The notes under the pieces: model-generated | Database searches by the model: none | Seen by the model: the letters and a program-made list of their open reading frames with translations, nothing else | What the model was told of the DNA's origin: nothing | Made by a program: the position numbers and the translations under genes | In this document: positions 1-64,000 of the stretch, one piece after another | How positions within the stretch are numbered: the first letter of the stretch is position 1 | How the letters are laid out: each line of letters begins with the position of its first letter | DNA from: Streptomyces sp. SCL15-4 | GTDB taxonomy: Bacteria > Actinomycetota > Actinomycetes > Streptomycetales > Streptomycetaceae | Direction of reading: 5' to 3' | Length of the DNA stretch: 64,000 bases | Assembly (NCBI RefSeq): GCF_033366695.1 | Contig: NZ_JAOBTQ010000001.1 | Span: forward strand, 4,836,001 to 4,900,000

Positions 1-446
1 ACGTCGGCCGCGAGGTGCTCCCGCCCGGCCCGCCCGCCGACCGGGCCGCCGAGATCGAGCAGCTGCGCGCGAAGTACAAGGCCGGACTCCGCCGCGCCGA
101 CGCGACCAACAACGCCCTAATGGAGGAAGTACAGCGGTACGCCGCCGGGACGGAACGCCCCGTGCTCTGGTCGGTCTACAACGAGATGCACAAGCGGGCC
201 CTGAACGCCGAGGCAGAGGTGGACCGGCTGCGTCGGCTGGCTGGCGGGCAGCAGGAGCCCGTCGCAGTGGCGGAGCAGCCCGTGGCAGGCCTGACCGTCG
301 ACTCCCTCGCTCGCCTCCTCGCCGGCGCCACCGCCCTCACCGGAGACACACCGCCGTACGACCAGCTCCCGGACGCCGACCGCGAGCGCTACCTCGGCGA
401 GGCCCGCCAGCTCCTGGACCGCGCGGACGGAGGGCAGCAGCCATGA
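1..446 (+). CDS. Conserved phage early protein, 5' truncated by window edge
   Basis: The reading frame is already open at the first base; the preceding codons read VGRE, so the GTG at 15 is internal and the true start lies outside the window. The protein is clearly related to the one at 47901-48449: both have REVLPPGPPADRAA near the middle and a C-terminal YDQLPDA-RERYLG block ending in DGGQQ. I do not recognise a function. Its stop overlaps the next start (ATGA), so it belongs to a translationally coupled string of small early genes. Confidence 0.8.
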   Translation, partial: VGREVLPPGPPADRAAEIEQLRAKYKAGLRRADATNNALMEEVQRYAAGTERPVLWSVYNEMHKRALNAEAEVDRLRRLAGGQQEPVAVAEQPVAGLTVDSLARLLAGATALTGDTPPYDQLPDADRERYLGEARQLLDRADGGQQP

Positions 447-643
447 ACCGCCCGCGCTGCCCCCGCGGCCACTTCCTCCCCGCCAACGCCCCGACGCCCC
501 AGGCAGACACCTGCCGCTGCGCCCCCGCCCGCCGCCGGCGGAAACGCCGCTACCGGCCCAGCTCCGACCTCCGCGGACAGCACGCCACCCTCCGCCAGCT
601 CTACACCGCCACCACCATCCCGCTCACCGGGACGTACCTGTGA
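443..643 (+). CDS. Small basic Cys-containing protein (CPRGHFLP family)
   Basis: A 66-residue, very basic protein. The N-terminal CPRGHFLP and a following CRC could bind a metal; the C-terminus is TTIPLTGTYL. The protein at 48446-48616 has the same CPRGHFLP start and a TTVPLTGSYL end, and again follows the partner of the upstream gene, so this pair is conserved between the two elements. The start is the ATG overlapping the upstream stop by 4 nt, with GGAGGG upstream. Function unknown; a small nucleic-acid or metal-binding role is only a guess. Confidence 0.75.
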   Translation: MNRPRCPRGHFLPANAPTPQADTCRCAPARRRRKRRYRPSSDLRGQHATLRQLYTATTIPLTGTYL

Positions 644-750
644 CCGCCGTCCTCGCCTACGTCGTCCTCGTCGCCAGCACCACCGGCGTCCTCTGCGCCC
701 ACTGGCTCTACCTCCCACGCCCCACTACCCGGAAGGACCCCACCACGTGA
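640..750 (+). CDS. 36-residue single-pass membrane peptide
   Basis: GTG start overlapping the upstream stop (GTGA); its own stop overlaps the next start in the same way (GTGA at 747). The peptide is one hydrophobic segment (about residues 3-25) followed by a short charged tail RPTTRKDPTT. The double overlap with real neighbours is the main support. Function unknown. One of several tiny membrane peptides in this window. Confidence 0.6.
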   Translation: MTAVLAYVVLVASTTGVLCAHWLYLPRPTTRKDPTT

Positions 751-968
751 GCACCACCCGCCAGAACCCCGATGGCTCTTGCAGCCCCGCCACCCCTCTG
801 CCCCTCACCAACGGCCTCGACGTCGAGGTGCACGGCACCGGTCCCTACGTCTGGCAGGCGTGGATCGGTCTCGACCGCATCGCGTCCGGCCGAGCACGGA
901 CTCGCCCGGGCCTCCAGTTCGCCATCTGGCGCGCACGGCGCCAGGCGGCCAAGAGGGCGCAGCGATGA
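747..968 (+). CDS. Hypothetical protein, 73 aa
   Basis: Starts at a GTG overlapping the preceding stop and ends overlapping the next ATG. It contains a compact tryptophan/glycine-rich core (GPYVWQAWIGLDRIASG) and a basic helix at the C-terminus (WRARRQAAKRAQR). No family recognised. Its place in the overlapping chain argues that it is translated. Confidence 0.65.
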   Translation: MSTTRQNPDGSCSPATPLPLTNGLDVEVHGTGPYVWQAWIGLDRIASGRARTRPGLQFAIWRARRQAAKRAQR

Positions 969-1549
969 CCCAGCCGAGCCCCGACGCGCGGGCCGTCGCC
1001 CACGCCATCGACGCCCTGACCACGCAGGTTCGACGCATCGCCGACGCCCTTACCCTCACGGCGCAGCAACGCTCCGACGCTACCGACGGCGCCCCGACGG
1101 CGGCACCCGCAGCGCTGCGGGACATGGCCGCCATCCTGCGGCACATCGACCCCGAAGGGTTCCGCGAGGCCGCCAGCTGCTGCGAGGCACGCGCCTTCGC
1201 CATCGAGCACGGCTTGGCTAAAGAGTCCGACGACGAGCGCCCGGCCCCGGCCGCCGACGAGGAGCAGATGCTCCGCTGGGCCCGCCGCGAGTCCCTCCTC
1301 GTCCTCGTCACCCGTGTCCAGCACGGCCGCACCCTCACCGCGGACGAAGCCCGCATCCTGCGCCAGCACGTGGAGACCGAGATGCGCGAGGCCGAGACCG
1401 CGCGCGCCGAGCTGGAGCAGGCGCAGGCCGCCATCGAGCGGGTGCGCTCCCTCCGTACGCCGTTCGTGATGTGGCGGGACATCGCCACCGCCCTGGACGG
1501 CGCCGAGCAGCCCACCACCACAGCGCCGCAGGACGGAGCCACGCCGTGA
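965..1549 (+). CDS. Helical hypothetical protein, 194 aa
   Basis: The ATG at 965 overlaps the upstream stop; the open frame extends further upstream but would overlap the previous gene, so 965 is preferred. The protein is alpha-helical: an N-terminal amphipathic stretch, then about residues 90-165 rich in E, R and A that could form a coiled coil. No catalytic motif seen. It lies in the coupled early operon; function unknown. Confidence 0.7.
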   Translation: MTQPSPDARAVAHAIDALTTQVRRIADALTLTAQQRSDATDGAPTAAPAALRDMAAILRHIDPEGFREAASCCEARAFAIEHGLAKESDDERPAPAADEEQMLRWARRESLLVLVTRVQHGRTLTADEARILRQHVETEMREAETARAELEQAQAAIERVRSLRTPFVMWRDIATALDGAEQPTTTAPQDGATP

Positions 1550-2901: not shown

Positions 2902-2903
2902 CC

Positions 2904-3340: not shown

Positions 3341-3350
3341 CCATGCGACA

Positions 3351-7111: not shown

Positions 7112-7984
7112 GTGAAGACCCGCACCATCGAGCGGACCCGCCTCGTCCCCCTCACCGTCGACGGCCAGACGGAGATGGTCCTCGACCGCGAGAAGATCGA
7201 GGTCCCCGCACCGCCCCGCGACTGGGACCAGCTCATCCGCACAGCCGTCACCCTCGGCGCCGGCCTCCTCGTCACCGTCTCCCTCACCTGGACCACCGCC
7301 TCCATCGGCGCCCTCCTGGCCATGTCCGTCGTCGCGGCCGTCGCCTACGGGGCCGCGGTCGCCTTCGACGCCGCATGGATCATGTGCATGGGCGTCGAGT
7401 GGCTGCTGCGCTACGACCCCGATCGCGCCGCGCTGCCCCGCCGCGTCGGGCACGTCGCCCTGCTGATCTCGATGGGCGCCGTCTTCGCCGACGGCTACCT
7501 CGTCACAGAGCAGTGGGTAGTCGGCGCCGTCGGCGCGCTCGTCTCCGCGCTCGCCAAGGGCGGCTGGACCATCGCCATGCGCGTCCACGCCCGGCCGCTC
7601 GACCCACTCACCCAGCAGTGGGTGGCCAAGCGCCGCGCCGCAGTCGACGGGCAGCTCGCCATGATCCCGATCCGGCGCGAACTCCAGCGCGGCCAGGCCC
7701 TCGTGGAGGCCGAGCAGCGCAGCCTCGCCGGAGCCACGGAGGAGAACGGATCCGCGGATCCGGAGCCCTCCGGAGTTCCGGAAGGTGCCTCGGAGGATCC
7801 GGAAGCCACGGTCAGCCCGATCCGGTCCGGCCGCGTGACCACGCAGGAAGCCGTCCGGAATGCCTGGGACTCCGGAATCCGGGAGCCGGAAGCAGTCCTC
7901 CGGACCGTCCGGAAGGCCACCGGCAAGGACGTGCCGCAGAGCAGCGTCGACCGCTACCTCCGCGCCCTCAAGGTCGGCGCCTGA
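7112..7984 (+). CDS. DUF2637/SpdB-like membrane protein with HTH-like tail
   Basis: 290 residues, GTG start with GGAGGAG upstream. Hydrophobic segments fall at about residues 45-66, 68-95, 112-130 and 135-155. A charged cytoplasmic part follows, and the last 50 residues (TTQEAVRNAWDSG, then SSVDRYLRAL) look like a replication/HTH-type helical DNA-binding tail. DUF2637 proteins occur in Streptomyces plasmids and ICEs near spread (spd) genes. First of four genes with overlapping ends (7112-9736); the positional counterpart is at 50437. A role in intercellular or septal DNA movement is inference from that context. Confidence 0.75.
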   Translation: MKTRTIERTRLVPLTVDGQTEMVLDREKIEVPAPPRDWDQLIRTAVTLGAGLLVTVSLTWTTASIGALLAMSVVAAVAYGAAVAFDAAWIMCMGVEWLLRYDPDRAALPRRVGHVALLISMGAVFADGYLVTEQWVVGAVGALVSALAKGGWTIAMRVHARPLDPLTQQWVAKRRAAVDGQLAMIPIRRELQRGQALVEAEQRSLAGATEENGSADPEPSGVPEGASEDPEATVSPIRSGRVTTQEAVRNAWDSGIREPEAVLRTVRKATGKDVPQSSVDRYLRALKVGA

Positions 7985-8637
7985 TGGCCGCGCAGCCGTC
8001 GCCCGGCGGTGACGAGCTGCGCGCCCGCCACCACCTTCGCCGCCTCGGCGCCCGCCCCATCGGCCACCAGGAGCCCACCGTGTCGATTCCCGAGCCCCGC
8101 CGCCCGGTCACGCCCACCCGCGTTATCCCCGCCGGCGCCCCGCTGCCGCCGCGCCCGCCCGAGCCCGGCGAGGCCCCGCCGTGGCGCACCCCGCCCCCGC
8201 CCCCGCCCGTCGTCACCAGCCCGCCCCCGGCCGCACCACCGCCTCCACCGCCCGCCGAAGTCGTCCTCCACCGCCACGTTCACGAGGTCATCCTCGTCCC
8301 CGTGGAGGATGAGCGCCCGCCGCGCCTGTGGGAGCGGCTGTGGGACGCCTTGGTCACCTGGCGCATGCTCGTCGCGCTCCTCGCCGCCCTCGTGCCGTGG
8401 GTTGTCGGCCGGAGCCCGGTCGGAATCTGGGCGCATACGCTGCACCAACTCCGCACGGAAGGCGGCATCCTCGCCGCCTACGTCGTGGCCGGCGTCGCGC
8501 TCGCCGCCGCCTGGGCCCTGGACCGGCGTACCGGCCGGGCCGTACCCCGAGCCCTTCTCGTCACCGCCATGCTCGGCGCCTTCGGCGTCTTCAGCTGGTG
8601 GGACCCGTTCCAGTTCCTCACCGGAGTCCACCGATGA
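7984..8637 (+). CDS. Proline-rich N-terminus, membrane C-terminus (TPTRVIPAG family)
   Basis: 217 residues, start overlapping the previous stop (TGATG). It contains RRPVTPTRVIPAGAPLP, then a long proline-rich stretch (about 55-85), a histidine/valine-rich segment and two to three hydrophobic helices from about residue 125. The protein at 52697-53275 shares the PTRVIPAG motif, the proline tract and the membrane end, and has the same neighbours. Topology suggests a long cytoplasmic proline arm. Function unknown. Confidence 0.75.
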   Translation: MAAQPSPGGDELRARHHLRRLGARPIGHQEPTVSIPEPRRPVTPTRVIPAGAPLPPRPPEPGEAPPWRTPPPPPPVVTSPPPAAPPPPPPAEVVLHRHVHEVILVPVEDERPPRLWERLWDALVTWRMLVALLAALVPWVVGRSPVGIWAHTLHQLRTEGGILAAYVVAGVALAAAWALDRRTGRAVPRALLVTAMLGAFGVFSWWDPFQFLTGVHR

Positions 8638-9146
8638 CCAGCACCACCACCCTCACCCTCGGCGGCCTGCTCGTCGCCCTGCTCATCCTGCTCGCCAACC
8701 TCCACCCTTGGTGGAAGGGCGGCCGAGAGATGAAGCAACTGGCTCCGTTCGGCAAGGGTTTTGGCGCCGCTGCGTGCGCCGCGGCCTGCCCGGGCGGGCT
8801 CCTCGGCTGGACCCACACCCACACCGGAACCGCCGCCAACGGCGCAGGAGCGCGCACCAGCGTCGCAACCAGCGGCACAACGTCGGGCAGTGGCCTCACC
8901 ACCGGCCAGCTCGTCGGGCTCGGCATGACCGGCGCGGTCATCGCGGTCTTGGCCGTCTTCCTCGTCGTCCTGGAGTACAAGGCAGCGGCGAAGAAGGACA
9001 GGCGCAGGATACTCGGTGGAGCGTTCGTGGGCAGCAACTTCCTGCTGACCGCGGGGGTGGCCGGCATGCTGGCGTGGTTGCCGGGCGCGCTGAACGGCGC
9101 CGGGGACGCGGTCGTCGCCGCCTTCCGGGGAGCGGGTGTCCTGTGA
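8634..9146 (+). CDS. Membrane protein of the conserved cassette, 170 aa
   Basis: Start overlaps the upstream stop (ATGA). Hydrophobic helices at about residues 8-22, 38-55, 84-106 and 128-150, with a Gly/Ser/Thr-rich loop between the second and third. Same position, size and topology as 53272-53853 in the other element; there is little residue identity by eye, but both have a CPAGFLG / CPGGLLGW-type segment. Function unknown; probably acts with its three neighbours. Confidence 0.7.
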   Translation: MTSTTTLTLGGLLVALLILLANLHPWWKGGREMKQLAPFGKGFGAAACAAACPGGLLGWTHTHTGTAANGAGARTSVATSGTTSGSGLTTGQLVGLGMTGAVIAVLAVFLVVLEYKAAAKKDRRRILGGAFVGSNFLLTAGVAGMLAWLPGALNGAGDAVVAAFRGAGVL

Positions 9147-9736
9147 GCCGTCTCGCCCGCCCCGCCGAGCGACTCGCCACCGGCTCCGTCACCGTCACCC
9201 GCCGCCTCGGTCGGCGCGCTGCCGCCTGGGTCAAGCGTGGCTACCGGTACGACCTGACCGGCTTCGCCGCCGTCATCGGCTGCTGGGTCCGCGCCGCCCT
9301 GCTCGTCCTCGGCCTGTACCTGCTGTGGCGTCTGGTCCGCGCGGCGCCCACCCTGCTGTGGCTCCTATGCGGTGCCTGGGTGGTCGCCGCCTGGCGCGCC
9401 AGCAAGTCCCCCTCCGAACCGGCCGCCGACACCCCCGTGGAGCTGGACGCAAGCGCGGTCCGGACCATGCTGCTGGACCTCATGGGAGAGGGCGACGCAG
9501 TGCACCTGCGCACGGTCCTCGCCCACCTCCACGGGCTGGACCTCGCGAGGGGCTGGACGGTGAGTGACCTGAGGGTGCGTCTGGAGGCACTGGGGATCAC
9601 CGTCCATCCCAAGGTGAAGGTGGCCGGCAGTAAGAGCCCCACGCGGGGCGTCCGGAGGGCGGATCTGCGGGTCGATCCGACCCTCTCCCGGCGGGCCACC
9701 ACTGAGACGTCTACCGAGGCATCTACCGCCGCCTGA
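9143..9736 (+). CDS. Membrane protein with C-terminal winged-helix-like domain
   Basis: 197 residues, GTG overlapping the upstream stop. Basic N-terminus, hydrophobic helices at about residues 40-62 and 66-84, then a cytoplasmic domain (about 100-165: AVRTMLLDLMGEGDAVHLRT, VSDLRVRLEALGI) that reads as a small helical DNA-binding fold. Equivalent to 53850-54674. The domain order (membrane then DNA-binding) recurs in the first cassette gene. Its 3' end is made of CTACCG repeats that continue past the stop. Confidence 0.7.
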   Translation: MSRLARPAERLATGSVTVTRRLGRRAAAWVKRGYRYDLTGFAAVIGCWVRAALLVLGLYLLWRLVRAAPTLLWLLCGAWVVAAWRASKSPSEPAADTPVELDASAVRTMLLDLMGEGDAVHLRTVLAHLHGLDLARGWTVSDLRVRLEALGITVHPKVKVAGSKSPTRGVRRADLRVDPTLSRRATTETSTEASTAA

Positions 9737-49573: not shown

Positions 49574-49582
49574 CTCGGAGAG

Positions 49583-52394: not shown

Positions 52395-52406
52395 AGGACC
52401 GGAACC

Positions 52407-54674: not shown

Positions 54675-54718
54675 AGCCCCCGGGGCAGCCGCCTCGGATC
54701 GACCGGAGAGGGCCCGTG

Positions 54719-54880
54719 ATGAAGAACTTCGACTACGTGAGCAGCAACGAGATCAAGGCCGAAGTCCAGCGGCTCAAGGCCGAGATCGACCGGCCCGAAC
54801 TGTCCGACGCCACGCGCGACGCCGCGCACTGGGGCATCAACGAGGCCCTGGACGAGCTGGAGAGGCGCGGCGACCTGTAG
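54719..54880 (+). CDS. Small helical protein, 53 aa
   Basis: ATG 54719 with GGAGAGG 9 nt upstream. An in-frame ATG at 54671 overlaps the previous stop and would add 16 Pro/Arg-rich residues. MKNFDYVSSNEIKAEVQRLK, then ELSDATRDAAHWGINEALDE. A single helical domain. Immediately precedes the conserved hairpin. Function unknown. Confidence 0.65.
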   Translation: MKNFDYVSSNEIKAEVQRLKAEIDRPELSDATRDAAHWGINEALDELERRGDL

Positions 54881-54884
54881 CTCA

Positions 54885-54927
54885 CCCCGGGGCGGCCGTC
54901 CGCCTGGCAGCTAGCCGGCCGCCCCGG
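54885..54927 (+). other. Conserved 43-nt hairpin leader, copy 2
   Basis: Identical over 43 nt to 10055-10097, stem and loop included; flanking leader similarity continues to the start codon at 54963. Same 11-bp stem CCGGGGCGGCC / GGCCGCCCCGG. Confidence 0.75.
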
Positions 54928-54962
54928 GTCCCATCCCGATCACGAGACAGGAGACCGCCATC

Positions 54963-55100
54963 ATGGCACTCGGCTGGAAGAAAAACCCGGAGCCCACCGA
55001 CCCTCGGCTGAAGGGGCACGAGACCACCTACCAGTCGTCGCGCGGCGGCTGGGTGAAGCGTGCTGAAAGGCCCGTCCCCGGCACGCCGAAGAAGGGATGA
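54963..55100 (+). CDS. Tiny protein of the ETTYQxSRGG family, copy 2
   Basis: 45 residues: MALGWKKNPEPTDPRLKG, HETTYQSSRGG, then PVPGTPKKG. Related to 10130-10291 in the central motif and the end, while the N-termini differ, i.e. the ETTYQ-SRGG core is what selection keeps. ATG with CAGGAG upstream; stop overlaps the next ATG. Function unknown. Confidence 0.75.
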   Translation: MALGWKKNPEPTDPRLKGHETTYQSSRGGWVKRAERPVPGTPKKG

Positions 55101-55375
55101 TGGGCGTCATGCCTGAGCAGACGGCCGTGCTCCTAGTCGACTCGTACACCACCAAGTGCGGCAGATGCGGGAAGGGAGCGCGCATCAAGGACACCCATCA
55201 CACCCGCCTCATGTCCGGCTGGAGCACACCCGACCCGCGCGACAGGCCCTGTGGCGCCCGCTTCGTAGCGATCTCGACCAGGCGCCTGGAGTACACCGTC
55301 GAGCAGCTCAGCGAGCTGCGCCCGGACCTGCCCGCCTACGCCGCGGGCCGAGTCCCCCGCGACCTCACCACCTGA
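55097..55375 (+). CDS. Small Cys-containing protein, 92 aa
   Basis: ATG overlapping the previous stop. KCGRCGKGARIKDTHHTRLM and a later PCGARFV give three Cys and two His that could bind zinc. C-terminal YTVEQLSELRPDLPAYAAGR. Function unknown; followed by a strong terminator. Confidence 0.65.
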   Translation: MMGVMPEQTAVLLVDSYTTKCGRCGKGARIKDTHHTRLMSGWSTPDPRDRPCGARFVAISTRRLEYTVEQLSELRPDLPAYAAGRVPRDLTT

Positions 55376-55394
55376 CCGTACGCCCACTGATCAC

Positions 55395-55429
55395 AGGCCC
55401 CGCCATCGCACCCACCGATGGCGGGGCCT
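55395..55429 (+). terminator. Strong hairpin terminator
   Basis: Perfect 14-bp stem AGGCCCCGCCATCG / CGATGGCGGGGCCT with a 7-nt loop, ending the membrane/early block. Confidence 0.75.
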
Positions 55430-55437
55430 GTCGCATC

Positions 55438-55647
55438 ATGGTGACCATGGAGCAGCCCATCCGCCCTGGTCACCTCACCGCCGAGCAGACCCGCCACGTC
55501 CTCGGCGGCATCAGCGCCGGCGCCCTCCGCCAGCTGGTCTACCGCGGCCAGCTCGCCCGCTCCGGCGGCACCGCCAGGTATCCCTACTACGCCGTCACCG
55601 ACGTCACCACCCTCGCGCTCAAGCGCCGCGAGCGCGCGGCCGCTTGA
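55438..55647 (+). CDS. Small MerR-like DNA-binding protein, 69 aa
   Basis: ATG 55438 or 55447. TAEQTRHVLGGISAGALRQL, then VYRGQLARSGGTARYPYYAV and DVTTLALKRRERAA: a winged helix of the excisionase/MerR-like type. It stands alone between two hairpins. A late-gene regulator or second excisionase-like factor is possible. Confidence 0.65.
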   Translation: MVTMEQPIRPGHLTAEQTRHVLGGISAGALRQLVYRGQLARSGGTARYPYYAVTDVTTLALKRRERAAA

Positions 55648-55716
55648 CCGCAGGTCAGGCACTATGTGACGATCCCGGTGTACAACTGTGCCCTTCGACG
55701 GCACCCCCAGACGTCC

Positions 55717-55743
55717 AGGCCCCGCCCACCAGCGGGGCCTTTG
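55717..55743 (+). terminator. Hairpin with T tail
   Basis: 9-bp stem AGGCCCCGC / GCGGGGCCT with a 6-nt loop followed by TTTG, just ahead of a small gene. Confidence 0.65.
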
Positions 55744-55760
55744 TCGTACCCGGAGGCATC

Positions 55761-55904
55761 ATGTCCGTCACGAACGACGCGCCCCGGAGCGCCGCCGAGG
55801 CCGCTCACCAACTCGCCGCGCAGGGCCACCACGTGCACATCGTCAGCGAAGGCCAGGGCGTTTGCCTGAAGGGCGAGTGCGACCTGCTGTCCGTGCTGCA
55901 CTGA
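55761..55904 (+). CDS. Small protein, 47 aa
   Basis: ATG with CCGGAGG upstream. APRSAAEAAHQLAAQGHHVH, then GVCLKGECDLLSVLH; two Cys. Function unknown. 130 bp to the next gene are non-coding; no feature seen there. Confidence 0.55.
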   Translation: MSVTNDAPRSAAEAAHQLAAQGHHVHIVSEGQGVCLKGECDLLSVLH

Positions 55905-56032
55905 GCCCGGGCGGGCAGCCGCCAAGGCTTCACCGTTGCTCCTCTGCGTGTCACAAGACGGCCACACCGCCACCGCTCCGGCCGCACACGGCGCATGATG
56001 CCCTCCGAGCATCACCGCACCTTGGGGGGGCC

Positions 56033-56281
56033 TTGAGCAGTTACAAAGACATCCAGACGGCCGTGCGTGTCGAGAAGTTCCGCATCTGGTTCGCCTGGCT
56101 GACCGGCAACGTCATCCTGCTGATCATCGCGGGGGTGACCCAGCACATCCACATCATCAGCGTCATCACCCAGGCGCTGCTCGTCGTCGGCTTTCTTCTC
56201 CTCACCTTCACCGCCGTCCGTATGAGCAACGCCCTCAACCGCAAGGCAGAAGCTCGGCGCCGCGAGGTCCTCGGCGAGTAG
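56033..56281 (+). CDS. Small two-helix membrane protein, 82 aa
   Basis: TTG start after a GGGGGGG tract. Charged N-terminus (SSYKDIQTAVRVEKFRIWFA), hydrophobic helices at about 20-36 and 42-64, basic tail (NRKAEARRREVLGE). Holin-like in size but located before the packaging genes; could be a superinfection-immunity type membrane protein. Function unknown. Confidence 0.6.
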   Translation: MSSYKDIQTAVRVEKFRIWFAWLTGNVILLIIAGVTQHIHIISVITQALLVVGFLLLTFTAVRMSNALNRKAEARRREVLGE

Positions 56282-56299
56282 CACCCGGAGGTGGCGCCC

Positions 56300-56590
56300 G
56301 TGGCCGGCAACCCCCGCAACGGGCGCCCCTACCGCCGCCTGGTTGCCGCACAGCGCGCCCTTGGCCTGCCCTGCTGGTGGTGCGGTGGGCCCATCCGCTA
56401 CGACATCACCGGCCCTCTCGCCGGCCGCCACCGGGACGCCTTCACCCTCGACCACGCCGTCCCCCTCTCCCGAGGCGGCGACCTCCTCGATCCCGCCAAC
56501 GCTCGCTCCGCGCACCGCCGCTGTAACAGCGCACGCGGCAACCGAACGGACGGCACGCGGCAGCCGGTGCGGTCCTCGCGGAGGTGGTGA
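56300..56590 (+). CDS. HNH endonuclease (packaging-associated)
   Basis: 96 residues, GTG 56300 with GGAGG 8 nt upstream. CWWCGGP at about 25-31, LDHAVPLSRGGDLLDPANAR with the HNH His pair region, and SAHRRCNSARGNR. HNH proteins next to terminase genes are common in HK97-like cos phages and assist cos cleavage. Here two genes lie between it and the terminase. Confidence 0.85.
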   Translation: MAGNPRNGRPYRRLVAAQRALGLPCWWCGGPIRYDITGPLAGRHRDAFTLDHAVPLSRGGDLLDPANARSAHRRCNSARGNRTDGTRQPVRSSRRW

Positions 56591-56594
56591 GACG

Positions 56595-57032
56595 ATGCCG
56601 GACATGGATGAGCAGCTGGTGCGGTGGCTGGGCGAACAGTTCGACGTGGACGAGCGGATCGCGCGCGCAGCGTGCTGGGACGAGCAGTCGGACGTCTGGA
56701 CCGTCCGGCCGCCCCAGGAGCCCTGCGAGCGATACACCGTCGTGGACTACCTCGGTGACGGCGTCGTGGCGGTGACCCCAGAGAACGCGGATGCCGACGG
56801 CGTGGGCCAGCACGTCGCGGAGTGGGACCCGCGCAGGGTGCTGCGCGAGATCGACGCCAAGAGGCGACTGCTGGAACTGCACGCGCCTGGCCAGATGGAA
56901 TACGTGGACGGCGACGTATGCATGGTCTGCGACGTCCGGGGCGAGGAGCCGTTCTACCCCTGCGCCACGGTGCGCCTGCTCGCCCTGCCCTACGCGGGCC
57001 GGCCCGGCTACCGCGAGGAGTGGCGGCCCTGA
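56595..57032 (+). CDS. DUF6221-like protein, right-hand copy
   Basis: 145 residues. MDEQLVRWLGEQFDVDERIA, HVAEWDPRRVLREIDAKRRL and YAGRPGYREEWRP match 5943-6320. This copy adds a middle with three Cys (CMVCD, FYPC) not present on the left. ATG 56595 or 56604. Function unknown; conserved across both elements but on opposite strands and in different places. Confidence 0.8.
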   Translation: MPDMDEQLVRWLGEQFDVDERIARAACWDEQSDVWTVRPPQEPCERYTVVDYLGDGVVAVTPENADADGVGQHVAEWDPRRVLREIDAKRRLLELHAPGQMEYVDGDVCMVCDVRGEEPFYPCATVRLLALPYAGRPGYREEWRP

Positions 57033-57049
57033 TCGGTAGGTGACGCAGC

Positions 57050-57493
57050 GTGCTGTACGTGGTCACCGGCCCACCGGCCGCAGGCAAGAGCAGCTGGATC
57101 GAGGCAAGAGCCCGGGCGACGGACATCGTCATCGACCTGGACCGGATCACACTCGCGCTCACCGGCCCGGGCGCTGCGCAATGGTCGCAGCACCCCGTCG
57201 CCATGAAGGTGGCGCACCGCGCCCGCTACGCTGCCATTGACGAGGCCTTCAAGCACCTGGACGAGGTCGACGTCTACCTGATTCACACCATGCCCAGCGC
57301 CAAGTGGCTGGCCCGGTACCGGAGGCATGGGGCCGAGGTGGTCGCGGTGGATCCGGGCAAGGACATCGTGATGCAGAGGATCAGGGACATGCGCGCGCCT
57401 GGACTACAGGCGGTGGCGACGCGCTGGTACGCGCAGCAAGCCAAGCAGCGCGGTGAACGTACCGTCACACGGCAGGCCTCGCGCACCTGGTGA
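57050..57493 (+). CDS. P-loop NTPase/kinase-like protein, 147 aa
   Basis: GTG start. Walker A GPPAAGKSS at 7-15, then IVIDLDRI, a Trp-containing lid region and VDPGKD with an Arg-rich end (RIRDMRAP). Reads like a small nucleotide or polynucleotide kinase of the AAA_33 type. Sits between DUF6221 and the packaging region, so DNA-end processing is conceivable but unproven. Confidence 0.75.
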   Translation: MLYVVTGPPAAGKSSWIEARARATDIVIDLDRITLALTGPGAAQWSQHPVAMKVAHRARYAAIDEAFKHLDEVDVYLIHTMPSAKWLARYRRHGAEVVAVDPGKDIVMQRIRDMRAPGLQAVATRWYAQQAKQRGERTVTRQASRTW

Positions 57494-57812
57494 TCGGCCG
57501 CCGGCGGAGGCGATAGGTGCCTCCTCCACGTAGCCCTGCGCAGTGCCGTCGACCGGGCCTTGGCAGGAAGCCGACGGCCCTTGCCGAGGGTGACGGACCG
57601 CAATGAGGGCAGGCAGAGCAGCGGTCGTTGGCGGATCGGACCGGGTGGGAGGGGGGCTCGACCCCATCGTGAAATCCGCGAGGCTGGGCGACCCAAACGC
57701 CCTTGTCGCCCGATTTTTTGCGCGGCGATTTTTCAAGATCTATTCGCGCGAACTCCGGTCGACCATTTTAGTGGGCCGTCACTCTGCGTGACGTGACTGA
57801 GTGTGACGGGCG
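57494..57812. other. Non-coding block with AT-rich spots, candidate packaging site
   Basis: About 320 bp before the small terminase gene. It holds CGATTTTTTGCGCGGCGATTTTTC (57711-57734) with two CGATTTTT copies, a locally AT-rich stretch to about 57770, and GTGAC repeats near 57788-57805. This contrast with GC-rich surroundings and the position suggest cos/pac or a late promoter. Two short frames cross it, neither convincing. Confidence 0.45.
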
Positions 57813-58097
57813 GTGGTGATCATGGGCGCGGTCGCCGACGCGATCACCGCCGAGATCGAGCAACTCGGCGTCGAGTCGATCTCTCCTGGTCTGGCCGAGC
57901 TAGCCACCAGCCTCGCGCGCTCCGTCGATGAGGCCGATGCCCCCACGGCCCGGGCGGTCGCTGCCCGTGAACTCCGAGCCGTCATGGGCGACCTGCGCAA
58001 GCTCGCTCCCGTTCAGTCGAAGGGGGACGCCGTCGATGACATCGCTGAGCAGCGAGCCAAGCGTCGGGCAGCGGCCCGCCGGGCGGCAGACGGCTGA
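57813..58097 (+). CDS. Terminase small subunit (short type)
   Basis: 94 residues. GTG 57813, GTG 57816 or ATG 57822. MGAVADAITAEIEQLGVESI, then LATSLARSVDEADAPTARAV and a basic end IAEQRAKRRAAARRAADG. Short helical proteins of this kind precede the large terminase in HK97-like actinophages. Overlaps the large subunit gene by 62 nt. Called by position and composition. Confidence 0.7.
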   Translation: MVIMGAVADAITAEIEQLGVESISPGLAELATSLARSVDEADAPTARAVAARELRAVMGDLRKLAPVQSKGDAVDDIAEQRAKRRAAARRAADG

Positions 58098-59616
58098 CGC
58101 TGCCCCGATCGGTTGGCAGGTGCCTCCGATCCAGACTGCTCCGCCCTCGGTGACAAGCGCAGGGCAGGAGGCCATTGACCTCGCGCGCAAGGCGGGCTTG
58201 AAGCTGGACCCGTGGCAGCAGCATGTGCTGCGCGTGGGCATGGGGGAGAGGCCGGACGGCAGTTGGGCGTCGTTCGAGGTGGCGGTGAACGTGCCGAGGC
58301 AGAACGGCAAGGGCGGGATCATCGAGGCTCGGGAGCTGTGGGGCCTGTTCATCGGCGGCGAGAACCTGATCCTGCACTCGGCGCACGAGTTCAAGACCGC
58401 GAAGAACGCCTTCCGACGGATCGAGCGCCTCATTCGTGGGTGCGCTGACCTGCACAAACGTGTCAAGCGGTACTGGCAGACCACGGGCGAGGAGAGCATC
58501 GAGCTGCACGACGGCCGCATGCTCCGCTTCATCGCCCGGTCCAAGGGCTCCGGCCGAGGCTTCAGCGGCGACTGCAACGTGATGGATGAGGACATGATCC
58601 TCGGCGACAACGAGATGGACGCGCTGCTCCCGACGATGGCCGCCATCGAGGACCCGCAGATCTGGTACCTCGGCAGTGCCGGGATCGGGGCTCCGTCCGT
58701 GCAGCTCGGCCGGCTGCGGCGCCGGGCGCTGGCCGCGATCGAGGCCGGCACGCCGGACCCGTCGCTGGCGTACTTCGAGTGGTCCGCGAACCTGCACGTC
58801 AAGGAGTGCCCGAAGGACTGCGACCAGCACGACGATCCGGCCTCCGACGAGGCTGTGCTGAAGTCCAACCCCGCCGTCGGCTTCCGGCTGACCCTGGCGA
58901 AGGTGGCGAACGAGCGGGCCACGCTGAGTAAGGAGGGTTACGCCAGGGAGCGGCTCGGCGTCGGCGACTACCCGTCCGACGAGGCCGACACCTGGCAGGT
59001 CATCGGCCGTGAGGCGTGGGAAGCCCTGGCGGACAGCGACAGCCAGCCGGAGGACCCGGTGGCGTTCGCGATCGACGTCACCCCGGAGCGCTCGCACGCG
59101 AGCATCTGCGTGGCCGGCCGATTCGGTGAGTCCGTGCACGTTGAGGTCGTGGACAACCGACCCGGTACGGACTGGGTGGCCCAGCGCGCGCGGGACCTGA
59201 CGGAGAAGTGGAAGCCGCGCTGCTGGGTCATCGACCCGGGCAGCCCGGCCGGCGCCCTCATCCGGGACGTCACGGACGCACTGAAGGTCGACCCGGACGA
59301 AGAGGTCGAGGACGAGGAAGAGCCGCAGCTGCTGGCCCCGATCGTGCAGACGAAGACCCGGGATGTCGTCCAGGCCGTCGGCCAGTTCTACGACGCCGTC
59401 GCAGCCGGCCGCATCTCGCACCTGGACCAGGCGCCTCTGGCGACAGCGCTGGCGGGCGCCAGGAAGCGGGAGCTGGGTGAGGCGTGGGCGTGGGCGCGCC
59501 GCGGCGTGGGCGTGGACATCACGCCGCTGGCGGGCGTGACGCTGGCGCGCTGGGGCGTCTTCGTGGAGATCGAGGAGCCGGAGGAGGAGGTGGAACCGTG
59601 GGCCGACTACGGCTGA
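58036..59616 (+). CDS. Terminase large subunit (HK97/Terminase_1 type)
   Basis: 526 residues from ATG 58036 (GGGGGA upstream). Deviant Walker A PRQNGKG at 87-93 and Walker B region NVMDEDM at about 180-187, both typical of Terminase_1; nuclease acidic residues in AIDVTPERSHASI (about 339) and VIDPGSPAGAL (about 400). A different family from the PBSX-like enzyme at 11619, so the two packaging systems are not recent copies. Confidence 0.92.
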   Translation: MTSLSSEPSVGQRPAGRQTADAAPIGWQVPPIQTAPPSVTSAGQEAIDLARKAGLKLDPWQQHVLRVGMGERPDGSWASFEVAVNVPRQNGKGGIIEARELWGLFIGGENLILHSAHEFKTAKNAFRRIERLIRGCADLHKRVKRYWQTTGEESIELHDGRMLRFIARSKGSGRGFSGDCNVMDEDMILGDNEMDALLPTMAAIEDPQIWYLGSAGIGAPSVQLGRLRRRALAAIEAGTPDPSLAYFEWSANLHVKECPKDCDQHDDPASDEAVLKSNPAVGFRLTLAKVANERATLSKEGYARERLGVGDYPSDEADTWQVIGREAWEALADSDSQPEDPVAFAIDVTPERSHASICVAGRFGESVHVEVVDNRPGTDWVAQRARDLTEKWKPRCWVIDPGSPAGALIRDVTDALKVDPDEEVEDEEEPQLLAPIVQTKTRDVVQAVGQFYDAVAAGRISHLDQAPLATALAGARKRELGEAWAWARRGVGVDITPLAGVTLARWGVFVEIEEPEEEVEPWADYG

Positions 59617-59777
59617 CGCGTGCGGGCCTGGCCCGCACGGGAGTCCTGACGGGTGGCGCCATGACGGCGTCCGGGGCGGGGCTGGGCTGGGGGCTGGCGG
59701 TGGGCCTCGCCCTGGGCGGGGTGCTGCTGGTGGCGTACTGCCTGCTCCTTGCTGATACGGACGGGAAGGGCCCGTGA
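59598..59777 (+). CDS. Small membrane protein between terminase and portal, 59 aa
   Basis: GTG with GGAGGAGG upstream, overlapping the terminase end and the portal start. Basic N-terminus MGRLRLTRAGLARTG and one or two hydrophobic helices (about 24-50, GLAVGLALGGVLLVAYCLLL). A membrane peptide inside a packaging operon is odd; function unknown. Confidence 0.65.
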   Translation: MGRLRLTRAGLARTGVLTGGAMTASGAGLGWGLAVGLALGGVLLVAYCLLLADTDGKGP

Positions 59778-61126
59778 CGAGTCTGTGGCAGCGCGCACGG
59801 CGGTCTCGGTCGGCCACCCGGGAGATCGGGACGATCGATGACTACGCGGCGGCTCTCGCGCAGTCGCTGGGTTACGGCGGGTTCTCGGCGTTGGGCATCA
59901 CCCAGTCGCAGTCCGGGCAGGCCGCGGAGAAGGCGCCGACGGACCTGCCGGGGTACGCGCAGCTTTTCGCGACGAACCCGGTGATCTGGGCGTGCATGGT
60001 GGCCCGCATGGCGGTGTTCTCCGCGCCGCGGTTCACCTGGCAACGCCTGAACAACGGCGTCCCGTCGGAGATGTTCGGCACGACGGAACTGCGGCTGCTG
60101 GAGCGGCCCTGGGCGGGCGGGACGACACAGGACCTGCTGTCCCGGGTCATCCAGGACGCCGACCTGGCTGGCAACAGCTACTGGACGGAGCACGACGGCG
60201 ACGCGGTGCGGATGCGGCCGGACTGGGTGCAGATCGTCCTGGAGCGGCGCCGGCACCCGCACGGCGGGGATCTGGGCTGGCGCCGGTACGGCTATCTGTA
60301 CCAGGAGCCCGGCGCCGACCCGGTGTTCCTGTGGCCGGAGGAGGTGGCGCACTTCGCGCCGGTCCCCGACCCGCTGGCGACGTACCGCGGGATGTCCTGG
60401 CTGACCCCGGTGATCCGGGAGACGCAGAACGACAACCTCATGGCCGCGCACAAGCGGCGGTACTTCGAGAACGCGGCCACCCCGAACCTGGTGGTGCGTT
60501 TGGCCCGGGAGGTCACCCCGGAGGCGTTCGCCAAGTTCAAGGCGAAGATGGAGGCCGGGCACCGCGGGGTCGAGAACGCCTACAAGACGCTGTACCTGGG
60601 CGGCGGCGCCGACGTGACCGTGGTCGGCAGCGACTTCAAGCAGATGGACTTCAGCGCCGTCCAAGGCGCCGGCGAAACCCGCATCGCCTCGGCGGCCGGG
60701 GTGCCGCCGATCATCGTGGGTCTGTCCGAGGGCCTCAAGGCCGCCACGTACAGCAACTACGGGCAGGCCAGGAGGCGTTTCGCCGACGGGACGATCCATC
60801 CGCTGTGGCAGAACGCGGCCGGCAGCTTCGCCCCGCTGGTCACACCGCCCGGCAGCGGCTCCGGCGCGGTCCGCCTCTGGTACGACGCCCGGCACGTTCC
60901 GTTCCTGCGCGAGGACGCCCGGGACGCCGCAGAGATCCAGGGCATCGAGTCCCGCACGATCCGCGCGCTGGTCGACGCCGGCTACACCCCGGAGTCCGTC
61001 CAGCAGGCGGTACGCGCCTCGGACTGGTCCCTGCTGGTCCACACGGGCCTGTTCTCCGTCCAGCTGCAGAAACCAGGGTCCACCGACGCTCCTGCGCTGC
61101 CCGCACCGACCGAAGGGGGATCCTGA
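59774..61126 (+). CDS. Portal protein (HK97 type)
   Basis: 450 residues, GTG overlapping the previous stop. LFATNPVIWACMVARMAVFS (about 65-84), a central WPEEVAHFAPVPDPLATYRG and VGLSEGLKAATYSNYGQARR (about 316-335), all typical of Phage_portal PF04860. Unrelated by eye to the SPP1-type portal of the left element. Confidence 0.9.
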   Translation: MTSLWQRARRSRSATREIGTIDDYAAALAQSLGYGGFSALGITQSQSGQAAEKAPTDLPGYAQLFATNPVIWACMVARMAVFSAPRFTWQRLNNGVPSEMFGTTELRLLERPWAGGTTQDLLSRVIQDADLAGNSYWTEHDGDAVRMRPDWVQIVLERRRHPHGGDLGWRRYGYLYQEPGADPVFLWPEEVAHFAPVPDPLATYRGMSWLTPVIRETQNDNLMAAHKRRYFENAATPNLVVRLAREVTPEAFAKFKAKMEAGHRGVENAYKTLYLGGGADVTVVGSDFKQMDFSAVQGAGETRIASAAGVPPIIVGLSEGLKAATYSNYGQARRRFADGTIHPLWQNAAGSFAPLVTPPGSGSGAVRLWYDARHVPFLREDARDAAEIQGIESRTIRALVDAGYTPESVQQAVRASDWSLLVHTGLFSVQLQKPGSTDAPALPAPTEGGS

Positions 61127-62073
61127 TGCCCGCACTGCCCGCCGTGACGCGCGACCTGGAGAGGTCGGCGCCGTTCCAGCTGGTCCGCGCCGATGGCACC
61201 GAGGAGGGCGACGGGCGGACCCTGACCGGGTACGCGGCGCTCTTCGGCACCCCCACCGAGATCAACTCGTGGGAGGGCACGTTCACCGAGACCATCCGCA
61301 AGGGCGCCTTCAAGAAGACGATCCGCGAGCAGACCCCGGTCATGCAGTTCGACCACGGCCGGCACCCGCTCATCGGGTCGATCCCGATCGGTGCCATCAC
61401 CGACCTGCGCGAGGACGACCAAGGCCTCTACGTCGAGGGCCGCATCACCGACAACTGGCTGATGCAGCCGGTCCGGGACGCGATCGCGGAGAAGTCCGTG
61501 AACGGCATGAGCTTCCGCTTCGAGGTCGTCCGCGAGGAGTGGCGCGACGTCAACGGCAAGCTGGTCAAGCCCGAAGAGGTCTACGACCTGCTGTGGATGC
61601 CGGGCGACCGCGGCCCGCTCCAGCGGGAGCTGATCGAGCTGAAGTGCCGCGAGCTGGGCCCGGTCGTCTTCCCCGCCTACGCCGGCACGTCCGTGTCGGT
61701 GCGGGCCCGCGACGTCGCCGACGGCCTCGCGCACGACGACGAGATGACCCGCCGCATCCGGCACTCCCTCGCCCGCGACACGGCCGCGCCGTCCGTCCCG
61801 GACGATCCCGAGCTGCGCCGCGAGGTCGCCACCGCGCTGCTCTACCAGCGTGCCGCGCCGCCCGCCCACGGGCACCCGGCCCCGACACGTTCCCCAGGCG
61901 CGCCGCTCGCTGACGAGCACCCGCCACCCCGGCCCACCCCTGACGCGCCGCCCGCCGATGGGCACCCGTCGCCCTCCGACCGCACCGTCCGCATGCGCTC
62001 TCAGCTGGCCGAGATCGGCCAGCTGATGGACGGCGTGCTGGCGTCCATCGACACCCCGAAGGAGACCGGCTGA
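61126..62073 (+). CDS. Prohead protease with proline-rich extension
   Basis: 315 residues. The first 190 residues are an HK97 S78-type protease: FDHGRHPLIGS (His77) and EKSVNGMSFRFEV (Ser124), as in the family that removes the coat delta domain. Then a Pro/Ala/His tail (about 245-290) with repeated P-A-DGHP-like units and a helical end (MRSQLAEIGQLMDGVLASID) that may act as a scaffold. The extension is longer than in minimal family members. Confidence 0.88.
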   Translation: MPALPAVTRDLERSAPFQLVRADGTEEGDGRTLTGYAALFGTPTEINSWEGTFTETIRKGAFKKTIREQTPVMQFDHGRHPLIGSIPIGAITDLREDDQGLYVEGRITDNWLMQPVRDAIAEKSVNGMSFRFEVVREEWRDVNGKLVKPEEVYDLLWMPGDRGPLQRELIELKCRELGPVVFPAYAGTSVSVRARDVADGLAHDDEMTRRIRHSLARDTAAPSVPDDPELRREVATALLYQRAAPPAHGHPAPTRSPGAPLADEHPPPRPTPDAPPADGHPSPSDRTVRMRSQLAEIGQLMDGVLASIDTPKETG

Positions 62074-63554
62074 TGCCGACGCTTCAGCTTTCCCACGGCC
62101 AGGCGGTCATCCGCCTGCGCGACATCCGCGCCCAGCTCGAAGAGCTGGAGAAGCGCGACAGCCTCACCGCCGAGGACGAGCAGACCTTCGATGAGCTGAC
62201 GCGGGAGTTCGCCGAGGTGGACGACCACCGCCGGCAGCTGGAGCGGCGCAGCGCCTTGGAGCGGGTGCGCGCCGCCACCCAGGCCACCGACCGACGACCG
62301 CCCGCCCTGGGCATCGAGCGGGGCACGCCGCAGGGCAGCGGCAGCGCCTACGACCTGGACCCGGTCCTCAACCCCGACTCGGTCGAGGACCGCCGGTTCC
62401 GCAACCCGTGGGACCTCGGCGAGATGCGCACCTTCAACCGGTCCCCCGAGGACCTCGCCCAGGAGCTGCGGGCCCGCGCGCTGTGCGCGGTCGAGAAGAT
62501 GGCCGGCGCCAACGACCGCATCCGGTCCACGGCGACGGACATCATCGAGGCCTGGGACGACAAGAAGGGCACCATCGCCCGCATGTGCCTGGCGACCTCC
62601 TCGCCGGAGTACATGCGGGCCTGGTCCAAGCTGGCCCGGGGCAAGAGCCACATGGTCACCCCGGAGGAGCAGCAGGCCCTGGAGCGGGCGATGTCCCTGA
62701 CGGACAACCAGGGCGGCTACCTCGTGCCGTTCCAACTGGACCCGACGGTCATCATCACGTCGAACGGGTCCATCAACCAGATCCGCCAGGTGGCCCGGCA
62801 GGTCGTCGCCACTGGCGACGTGTGGAACGGCGTGTCCGCCGGTGCCGTGTCGTGGCGGTGGGCCGCCGAGGGCTCCGAGGCCGGCGACAACGCCCCGGCC
62901 TTCGGGCAGCCCTCCGTACCGGTCTGGAAGGCGGACGGCTTCGTGCCGATCTCCATCGAGGCGATGGACGACGCCGACAACGTCACCACCGAAGTCGGAC
63001 GCCTGCTCGCCTTCGGCAAGGACAACCTGGAGGCCGCCGCGTTCATCAACGGCAGCGGCTCCGGCCAGCCCACGGGCATCGTCACCGCGCTGACGGGCAC
63101 GTCGTCCATCGTCACCTCGACCACGGCGGACACGTTCGCGTCCGGCGACGTGTACAAGACCGACACCGCCCTGCCCGGCCGGTACCGCGCCAACGCCGCC
63201 TGGCTGGCCAACCGCGGCATCTACAACGCCATCCGCCAGTTCGACTCCTCCGGCGGCACGAACCTGTGGGAGCGCATCGGCGCCGACGTCCCCCCGATGC
63301 TCCTGGGCCGCCGCGCCCTGGAGGCGGAGGACATGGACGGCACCGTCAACGCCGGCCAGGAGAACTACGTGGCCGTGTACGGCGACTTCGACAACTACGT
63401 CATCGCCGACCGCATCGGCATGAGCATCGAGTTCCTGCCGCACCTGCTGGGCGCCAACCGGAGGCCGACCGGCCAGCGCGGCTGGTACGCCTGGTACCGG
63501 GTCGGCGCCGACAGCGTGAACGACGCCGCGTTCCGGATGCTCAACGTCACCTGA
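62073..63554 (+). CDS. Major capsid protein (HK97 fold, delta domain)
   Basis: 493 residues, ATG overlapping the protease stop. Residues 1-about 110 form a coiled delta/scaffold region (LRDIRAQLEELEKRDSLTAE), probably cut by the upstream protease; then the HK97 core with MSLTDNQGGYLVPFQLDPTV, SGSGQPTGIVTALTGTSSIV and a C-terminal GADSVNDAAFRMLNVT. Longer than a bare HK97 coat because the scaffold is fused. Confidence 0.92.
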   Translation: MPTLQLSHGQAVIRLRDIRAQLEELEKRDSLTAEDEQTFDELTREFAEVDDHRRQLERRSALERVRAATQATDRRPPALGIERGTPQGSGSAYDLDPVLNPDSVEDRRFRNPWDLGEMRTFNRSPEDLAQELRARALCAVEKMAGANDRIRSTATDIIEAWDDKKGTIARMCLATSSPEYMRAWSKLARGKSHMVTPEEQQALERAMSLTDNQGGYLVPFQLDPTVIITSNGSINQIRQVARQVVATGDVWNGVSAGAVSWRWAAEGSEAGDNAPAFGQPSVPVWKADGFVPISIEAMDDADNVTTEVGRLLAFGKDNLEAAAFINGSGSGQPTGIVTALTGTSSIVTSTTADTFASGDVYKTDTALPGRYRANAAWLANRGIYNAIRQFDSSGGTNLWERIGADVPPMLLGRRALEAEDMDGTVNAGQENYVAVYGDFDNYVIADRIGMSIEFLPHLLGANRRPTGQRGWYAWYRVGADSVNDAAFRMLNVT

Positions 63555-63565
63555 CCTACCCCGCT

Positions 63566-63604
63566 CCGACGGCCGGACGACCCCTGTGGTCTTCCGGCCG
63601 TCGG
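63566..63604 (+). terminator. Hairpin between coat and next head gene
   Basis: Perfect 12-bp stem CCGACGGCCGGA / TCCGGCCGTCGG with a 15-nt loop, 12 nt past the coat stop. May lower expression of downstream genes relative to the coat. Confidence 0.65.
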
Positions 63605-63627
63605 CATCCCCTGAAGGGAGTCACCTC

Positions 63628-64000
63628 ATGAGGCAGAGCCTCTACAACGTGGCGCGGGCCAAGGCCACGCTGACGGTCGCGGTGCGCACCAACGGCACGG
63701 TGAACGGCACGTCCGTTGACCTGCACGAGAACAAGGACGCGTCCCGGTCGGCGATGCTCATCGTCCACACCGGCACCATCACCGACGGGACGCACGCGGT
63801 CGTCCTGCAGGAGTCCGACGACAACTCCACCTGGTCGACCGTGGCCGCCGCCGACCTGCAGGGCAGCGCGCTCAGCATCGCCTCGACCGACGACGACACC
63901 GTGTTCGAGCTGGGCTACAAGGGCTCCAAGCGCTACCTGCGGGCCTCGGTGACCACGTCCAGCGCGACGTCGGGCGGCACGTTCGGCGCGACCATCGTGC
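63628..64000 (+). CDS. Probable head decoration protein, truncated by window end
   Basis: ATG with AAGGGAG upstream; frame open to the last base (at least 124 residues). MRQSLYNVARAKATLTVAVR, then NGTSVDLHENKDASRSAMLI and VLQESDDNSTWSTVAAADLQ: beta-rich and Thr/Ser-rich, like Ig-fold proteins that decorate HK97-type heads. Assigned by position and composition. Confidence 0.65.
   Translation, partial: MRQSLYNVARAKATLTVAVRTNGTVNGTSVDLHENKDASRSAMLIVHTGTITDGTHAVVLQESDDNSTWSTVAAADLQGSALSIASTDDDTVFELGYKGSKRYLRASVTTSSATSGGTFGATIV

Follow-up and report, generated by a model that had tools for sequence, protein, structure and literature searches.

A putative Spd-like membrane protein cassette, often with a repeat array in its first gene, in two tandem prophages of Streptomyces sp. 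SCL15-4

Background

The closest described counterparts of the cassette treated here are the Spd/TraB/clt plasmids pIJ101, pSVH1, pJV1 and pWTY27. The clt locus of pWTY27 consists of 16 bp of traA and the following 159 bp and contains 7-bp repeats bound by TraA, for which two membrane segments are predicted (PMC3583192). SpdB2, a membrane protein that oligomerizes and binds DNA, interacts with TraB, and the SpdA2 protein of pIJ101 has palindromic binding sites within its own gene and influences stability (PMC4170104). Actinomycete integrative and conjugative elements (AICEs) are recognised by Int, Rep and an FtsK-type Tra occurring together in 30–60 kb (PMC3218068). The present analysis concerns a stretch of 64,000 nucleotides from Streptomyces sp. 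SCL15-4 (the window; positions 4,836,001–4,900,000 of the larger contig, genome size 8.4 Mb), which holds most of one prophage (left) and the first part of a second (right) in tandem, and a cassette of small genes, here called gene 1, N, M, C and c4, that both prophages carry.

The ordinary part of the finding is that these are two mosaic prophages with a common early module. The unusual part is a putative Spd-like cassette that is found with several virion types or with none seen, and in which a predicted DNA-binding membrane protein often carries a repeat array matched to the type of its own helix-turn-helix (HTH) domain. A literature search at title and abstract level gave no description of such phage genes or of arrays following the HTH inside SpdB-like genes, which does not prove that none exists.

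Results and discussion

The cassette and the loci compared

Genes were called by a script of our own, so that some starts will be wrong, and E-values from script comparisons are relative to small sequence sets. The cassette genes of the window are the following.

7112–7984, + strand: left gene 1, SpdB-like, with a type A HTH (phrog_35187, E 5e-135; AlphaFold2 model; linked to SpdB through its family)
7984–8637, + strand: left N (phrog_15316, E 8e-25)
8634–9146, + strand: left M, a small membrane protein (phrog_16379, E 3e-56; alignment)
9143–9736, + strand: left C (phrog_5650, E 1e-36; AlphaFold2 model, mean pLDDT 86.7)
10130–10291, + strand: left c4, a small protein (cluster c4; BLASTP E 1e-10 to the protein at 54963)
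50437–51627, + strand: right gene 1, a membrane protein whose C-terminal domain is HTH_17-like (PF12728, E 2e-4, below its cut-off)
52904–53275, + strand: right N (phrog_15316, E 1.5e-35)
53272–53853, + strand: right M (phrog_16379, E 3e-55)
53850–54674, + strand: right C (phrog_24067, E 5e-78; profile match to left-type C)
54963–55100, + strand: right c4 (cluster c4; BLASTP to left c4)

M was used as the marker of the cassette in genome searches. It was found in 30 of 150 genomes of the same genus and, at a stricter cut-off (E ≤ 1e-8), in 66 of 392, the two samples overlapping; neither search found it in any of the 14 named controls. The first search gave 36 places, or 34 loci after merging of two adjacent pairs, of which 33 form the discovery set (two in the window and 31 fetched; G120, a 3-kb contig, was left out). 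The replication set consists of 40 of the 41 new places from the search of 392 genomes (G315 was left out). The fetched stretches are 7–20 kb long, and the context was read at 73 loci in total.

Repeat arrays inside gene 1

At many loci short repeats cluster in gene 1, within the DNA for the linker and the HTH. In the AlphaFold2 model of left gene 1 (six sequences, mean pLDDT 70.6) four helices at residues 37–159, taken as membrane-spanning, are followed by a helix (165–211), a disordered part (211–239) and a three-helix C-terminal HTH (244–289), and the array of this gene lies as follows.

7759–7913, + strand: eight copies of TCCGGA in left gene 1, across the linker and the first HTH helices (codon-null test)

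These eight copies, out of 31 in the whole window, occupy all three reading frames. When the protein was kept and synonymous codons were redrawn, the mean number of copies was 1.28 and the maximum 5 in 2000 draws, and the cluster score had p 0.0005 with the codon usage of the window itself.

The same null was applied to both sets of loci. With 7-mers, 17 of 31 gene 1 copies of the discovery set reached p ≤ 0.01, as did 9 of 110 other genes, three of the nine being C or N genes. With 6-mers on both strands, the lowest p that could be reached (≤ 0.0034) was obtained for 18 of 33 gene 1 copies of the replication set and for 5 of 214 other genes (Fisher 2.6e-14), and at p ≤ 0.01 the numbers were 19 of 33 and 12 of 214, the latter indicating a somewhat lenient null. 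The rule used for gene 1 picked out no gene at 7 of the 40 new loci, and two of the five significant replication controls turned out to be gene 1 of L099 and L136. After these had been moved from the controls into gene 1, 37 of 66 copies were significant at p ≤ 0.01 (16 of 31 in the discovery and 21 of 35 in the replication set). The loci are not all independent, since gene 1 of L106 is near-identical to left gene 1, with no difference in the spacing of the array, and several genes of type C resemble each other closely.

Low-complexity linkers and G+C bias, with the repeats as their by-product, would suffice to explain right gene 1, in which an AGGACG array (51260–51443) is not significant (p 0.76 and 0.59) and is put down to repetitive protein sequence, and the controls above their nominal rate (12 of 214) point the same way. 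As a general explanation this is nevertheless given very little weight, considering the 37 significant copies, the occurrence of repeats in several reading frames in many of them, and the position of the segment of the locus densest in repeats, which fell in gene 1 for 31 of the 32 significant genes so tested (32 of the 37 were used). Putative cis-acting short direct repeats are thus, as far as sequence can tell, present near candidate transfer genes, right gene 1 excepted.

The repeat goes with the HTH type

HTH types and their repeats were set on the discovery set: A with TCCGGA, B with GGGTAC/CGGGTA, C with CGGAAC, D with GCTCAG, E with none, and F untested. In the new loci 24 of 40 could be typed (A 8, B 6, C 4, E 6), and the mean number of the type's own motif was 4.12 for A, 8.33 for B and 17.25 for C, with off-diagonal means of at most 0.67. 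At least four own repeats were present in 13 of the 18 new genes of types A–C. As the pairs had been set beforehand and recur in the new loci, this is a replication. Gene 1 of L136, with a D-like HTH (by eye), has GGCTCA repeats.

Pairwise comparison of significant genes gave the same picture. With an HTH identity of at least 42% the repeat was the same in 45 of 48 pairs, and at 30–42% in 36 of 65; when the membrane domain was at least 42% identical and the HTH less than 30%, it was the same in none of 31 pairs, and with both domains low in 60 of 515. The repeat therefore tracks the HTH type rather than the membrane domain. Where the HTH ends in an IGQ-type helix, one or two bases distinguish the repeats from each other (GGGTAC, GAGTGC, GGATAC, and GGGTGC in phage VWB), which looks like co-variation, by reading of the sequences only.

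An HTH and an array in one gene would also be expected of an autoregulatory switch, in which binding of the gene 1 protein to the array that its gene carries would repress or attenuate the operon, tuned by the membrane anchor, without any DNA transport; a hairpin after C at part of the loci (below) would agree with it. In some gene 1 copies, however, the array extends for several hundred bp and has 20–32 sites of mixed orientation, which exceeds the need of an operator, and M adjoins FtsK-like genes on plasmids. Autoregulation as the sole function is regarded as unlikely.

A second array at the end of C

Another array was found at the C gene of the left prophage.

9710–9795, + strand: five copies of TCTACC on the same strand, spanning the 3' end of left C with its stop codon (cluster count in 773 kb)

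The background of TCTACC is 0.33 per kb (both strands) in 773 kb, where clusters of at least three within 150 nt occur at eight places, all of them at a C stop codon. In the new loci, of which 27 of 40 have C, four more clusters were found, all at stop codons of C1-type C genes (4 of 11, against 0 of 16 for other C types). The same place holds TCTCCC repeats in phage VWB and TCTACC in phage Kromp (read from the printed sequence). The gene 1 and C arrays are not strictly coupled, since L049 and L101 have a gene 1 array and a C2-type C without a TCTACC cluster and L043 has the cluster without a significant gene 1 array.

An identical 43-nt hairpin on both sides, reported by the initial annotation, was also recovered.

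10055–10097, + strand: hairpin copy 1, just upstream of c4
54885–54927, + strand: hairpin copy 2, just upstream of c4

Its 27-nt core (≤ 3 mismatches) occurs at these two places only in the window and in none of 100 shuffles, and Rfam gave no match in the window at the gathering threshold. The hairpin was considered as the key element of the cassette and rejected as such, being the trait of a subset: it is near C in 10 of 33 discovery loci including those of the window (≤ 4 mismatches, stem by eye), and a script located it in 4 of the 27 C-bearing loci of the replication set. Perhaps it is a leader or terminator of c4; a packaging site is unlikely because it is found beside different terminases. 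In L047, L051 and L064 the loop is inverted relative to the genes, with the flanking CCCATCCC stretch keeping its direction (by eye).

The cassette with and without virion genes

The two prophages have different heads, as had been stated from the sequence before.

11619–12896, + strand: left terminase large subunit (phrog_2, E 1e-41)
13086–14600, + strand: left portal (phrog_533, E 2e-118)
16861–17808, + strand: left major capsid protein (phrog_283, E 1e-64)
58150–59616, + strand: right terminase large subunit (phrog_9, E 2.5e-68)
59774–61126, + strand: right portal (PF04860, E 1.5e-34)
61126–62073, + strand: right prohead protease (PF04586, E 2e-25)
62073–63554, + strand: right major capsid protein (phrog_10, E 1e-52)

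The two large terminase subunits gave no significant BLAST match with each other (43 aa, E 1.3). The proposal of the initial annotation that the block is independent of the virion type was followed up by a co-occurrence count and is supported by it: one of five terminase clusters was found near M at 49 of 73 loci (c30 at 17, c10 at 13, c52 at 10, c72 at 6 and c122 at 3). For each cluster the representative examined matches terminase PHROGs, with 2, 9 or 979 as the best, and the matches of six capsids examined are to PHROGs 10, 29 or 283; at the fetched loci labels such as integrase, terminase and portal stand for similarity to a cluster in which one member or a few had been checked. At the other 24 loci none of the five terminase clusters was found in the stretch of 7–20 kb, from which other terminases, or ones further away, would escape. 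Being near five terminase clusters or none of them, the cassette is not tied to one virion and is independent of it.

Among the 24 loci, 13 have an integrase-like gene (L053, L055, L059–L062, L117, L119, L121, L127, L129, L131 and L135), nine of these together with a replication gene and two, L061 and L062, with a capsid gene. Four have an FtsK-like gene (L056, L057, L068 and L137), these being the only ones in 73 loci, and seven have neither (L042, L049, L071, L072, L113, L116 and L136), some of them lying at contig ends. L061 and L062 carry capsid (phrog_10 in L062) and small-terminase genes (PF05119 in L062) with none of the five large-terminase clusters in the stretch, and are possible capsid-bearing phage satellites.

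The arrays also bear on a partition function, in which the array would be a centromere-like site and gene 1 would tether excised or plasmid-phase copies to the membrane for inheritance, with no passage between compartments. Iteron-like arrays with a dedicated candidate reader would fit such a role, as would the binding of SpdA2 to its in-gene palindromes and its effect on stability (PMC4170104). On the other hand an integrase-like gene is present in the two elements of the window as well as at the 13 further loci, so that inheritance would need no partition, and this function is thought somewhat less likely still than autoregulation.

M is present four times in the host genome. One further locus, L044 (G000:C1:4498362–4518300), appears to be a second, near-identical copy of the right cassette region (window 48000–64000), with equal M scores and the same gene clusters. 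The four copies and the many different repeats would both be compatible with exclusion or incompatibility, where a resident membrane-bound HTH captures and blocks incoming DNA with the same array. Two of the four copies being near-alike (window right and L044) is disfavoured under exclusion of the same type, which makes this explanation improbable.

Which genes travel together

All seven gene pairs between the left and right prophages listed in the initial annotation were borne out, by differing kinds of evidence (BLASTP, PHROG and profile comparison). Two-sequence BLASTP was significant for 15/47901 (47% identity, E 5e-30), 443/48446 (45%, E 5e-11), 5943/56595 (46%, E 6e-26), the M pair 8634/53272 (26%, E 4e-7) and the c4 pair 10130/54963 (64% over 25 aa, E 1e-10). 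It was not significant for the N pair 7984/52904 (E 0.27; the right N start was previously given as 52697, and 52904 is that of our gene caller), which is accepted because both proteins match phrog_15316 (E 8e-25 and 1.5e-35). For the C pair 9143/53850 BLASTP was likewise not significant (E 0.31); comparison of the left-type and right-type families by hhalign gave a probability of 97.7% (E 2.4e-12), despite left and right C matching different PHROGs (5650 and 24067).

That the block is a portable unit was upheld, with a changed composition: the unit consists of gene 1, N, M, C and c4 and does not include 15/47901 and 5943/56595, whose families occur in just 3 and 8 of 40 clustered sequences. 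The c4 cluster has 13 members in 12 of 40 sequences. Gene 1 (7112 and 50437), which had been left unpaired, occupies an equivalent slot in the two prophages. Profile comparison did not support a single family for left and right gene 1 (hhalign probability 0.5%), and gene 1 is a slot occupied by several families.

Phages and plasmids

Among phages, M and C turned up in those of Streptomyces. VWB and Kromp carry both, and Kromp also N and gene 1 (gp82, profile E 2e-18). Arrays are present in VWB gp24 (17 copies of GGGTGC, p 0.002; gene 1 by position only, not by profile), in Kromp gp82 (20 copies of CGGACA, p 0.002) and in TurkishDelight gp97 (11 copies of GGGGAC, p 0.002), a tblastn match of left gene 1; another such match, gp690 of phage SF3, is without an array (p 0.95). 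Clustered repeats were also seen in the neighbouring genes VWB gp25 (p 0.006) and TurkishDelight gp100 (CCTCCG, p 0.002; L142:5970–7244), the latter ending like the C family (by eye). In the records of VWB, Kromp and TurkishDelight the features listed are hypothetical or membrane proteins and the repeats are unannotated.

On plasmids, a gene of Streptomyces sp. NBC_01174 has 13 repeat copies (p 0.002), and in the genes of two others the array is absent or marginal (p 0.61 and 0.02). M was also found on a Kitasatospora plasmid, directly upstream of an FtsK/SpoIIIE gene, and lies directly upstream of homologues of this gene in L057, where the FtsK-like protein matches phrog_12531 (FtsK/SpoIIIE-like, E 3e-64), and on a Streptomyces plasmid. 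In a collection of species genomes, Streptomyces sp. NK08204 is the one named relative that was found for M. A homologue search with M gave 248 proteins (7998 candidates scored), and among the 120 matches listed all are unnamed, hypothetical or uncharacterized apart from two labelled 'Sulphur transport domain'. In one Streptomyces plasmid 17 copies of TGTCGC lie between an FtsK-like and a ParA gene (L079:16876–17077), a run that is possibly a clt locus.

The cassette thus resembles the Spd/TraB/clt plasmids in its runs of small membrane genes with a SpdB-like protein, in the position of M beside FtsK/TraB-like genes on plasmids, and in short-repeat arrays that lie near or overlap a gene for a winged-helix membrane protein, the TCTACC array of C having a layout like that of clt in pWTY27. 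It differs in being mostly beside phage genes, with no FtsK motor near the prophages of the window, and in that the array is often inside the SpdB-like gene, following its HTH; the cassette is, moreover, known here from its sequence alone. A DNA-binding Spd protein with a site in its own coding region recalls SpdA2 and sps of pIJ101, which amount to two or three copies of one conserved palindrome, unlike the gene 1 arrays with their many copies, many different repeats and link to the HTH. In the manner of AICEs, the cassette of L053 and L055 is accompanied by replication genes and by genes that are integrase-like and, by eye, Xis-like, but no c93-type FtsK gene was found in 20 kb, the stretches being under 30–60 kb and other FtsK types not having been searched singly.

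Similarity to Spd proteins

When pIJ101 SpdB was compared with 1181 proteins the top five were all gene 1 (E 1.6e-7, 5.8e-5, 0.0099, 0.019 and 0.026), suggesting a relation of gene 1 to a characterised Spd protein that is weak but specific. The PHROG families best matched by the core proteins have no function assigned, except for right gene 1 (HTH families, in its C-terminal part). Pfam gave just weak HTH matches and one YhhN match in right gene 1 for the eight core proteins (gene 1, N, M and C of both sides), NCBIfam gave no family for the four of these eight that were searched, and a PDB fold search of gene 1 and C gave nothing at E ≤ 0.001. Left N has a proline-rich N-terminus followed by membrane helices and a conserved TGV at its end (alignment). 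In the model of left C a winged helix is predicted with confidence, along with two helices interpreted as membrane-spanning, and c4 is conserved in its RGG and PGTPK parts.

A proposed role in DNA docking and spread

The most likely reading is a role in docking or spread, namely that the Spd/clt-like cassette would attach the DNA of its element to the membrane so that it can spread through the mycelium, to which a probability of roughly 0.48 is assigned. The inferred course of HTH–array binding, docking and spread would be as follows. A portable cassette of the Spd kind would be carried by phages, satellite-like and integrative elements and plasmids. The C-terminal HTH of gene 1 would read the short-repeat array, which in about half of the copies sits in its own gene, and would in this way mark the DNA of the element and dock it at the membrane. 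C, putatively membrane-anchored and with a winged helix, would recognise the second array, at the 3' end of its gene, in the way that TraA/TraB recognises clt, and N and M may form or line a membrane complex. The excised circle would be held at, and then passed through, the cross-walls of the mycelium, with the motor supplied in trans by host FtsK or a co-resident TraB. A wider version, put forward with rather more reserve, is that of a self-addressed DNA gate common to temperate Streptomyces phages, satellites, plasmids and integrative elements, in which the HTH of the SpdB-like protein would read an in-gene address, address and reader would be exchanged together and phage genomes would be moved without particles.

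Several results weigh against docking and spread. An array at p ≤ 0.01 is lacking in 29 of 66 gene 1 copies, including the right one of the window, and in pIJ101 spdB itself (p 0.77); 5 of the 18 new genes of types A–C have fewer than four own repeats, and the controls exceed their nominal rate in both sets (12 of 214 and 9 of 110). Linkage alone could hold HTH and array together because the array adjoins or overlaps the HTH codons. The similarity to SpdB is weak, with the two gene 1 proteins of the window outside the top five, and the SpdB profile match of gene 1 has a composition bias exceeding its score; with SpdA, KilB or Tra of pIJ101 as the query, none of the cassette proteins among the 1181 was a significant match. 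M at E ≤ 1e-8 was found in 8 of 396 genomes of the phylum, all of this genus (9 candidates scored per genome), and, being present in one of 236 sampled genera, would be no general trait of mycelial actinobacteria. No FtsK/TraB translocase was found in the same element as the cassette for the prophages of the window, and none of the seven FtsK matches of the genome is near either prophage (the nearest is at 5.20 Mb), so the motor is assumed. C as a TraB minus its motor was also considered and was rejected after profile comparison with four FtsK-like proteins (hhalign probability 0.9%), the resemblance of C to TraB being one of layout alone: two membrane helices, a winged helix and an array at the 3' end.

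If docking and spread is correct, phages of a multicellular bacterium would carry a plasmid-style spreading system independent of virions, and the 37 array-bearing gene 1 copies would provide ready pairs of HTH and DNA site in which protein and site change together. It would also give a testable role to PHROG 15316, 16379, 5650 and 24067, now function-unassigned, and would bear on what Spd proteins do.

Other features of the prophages

The integrase gene of the left prophage (PF00589, E 8e-17) precedes the window, at L009:5857–7077. That of the right prophage is probably the following.

37895–39199, − strand: likely integrase of the right prophage (same BLAST cluster, c9, as L009:5857–7077)

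It had no Pfam match of its own at E 0.001. Between a Prim-Pol gene (42425–45085, PF09250) and a helicase gene (45445–47052, PF00270) of the right prophage, GTCCCCG repeats in both orientations lie at 45052–45409, which is possibly the replication origin of this prophage.

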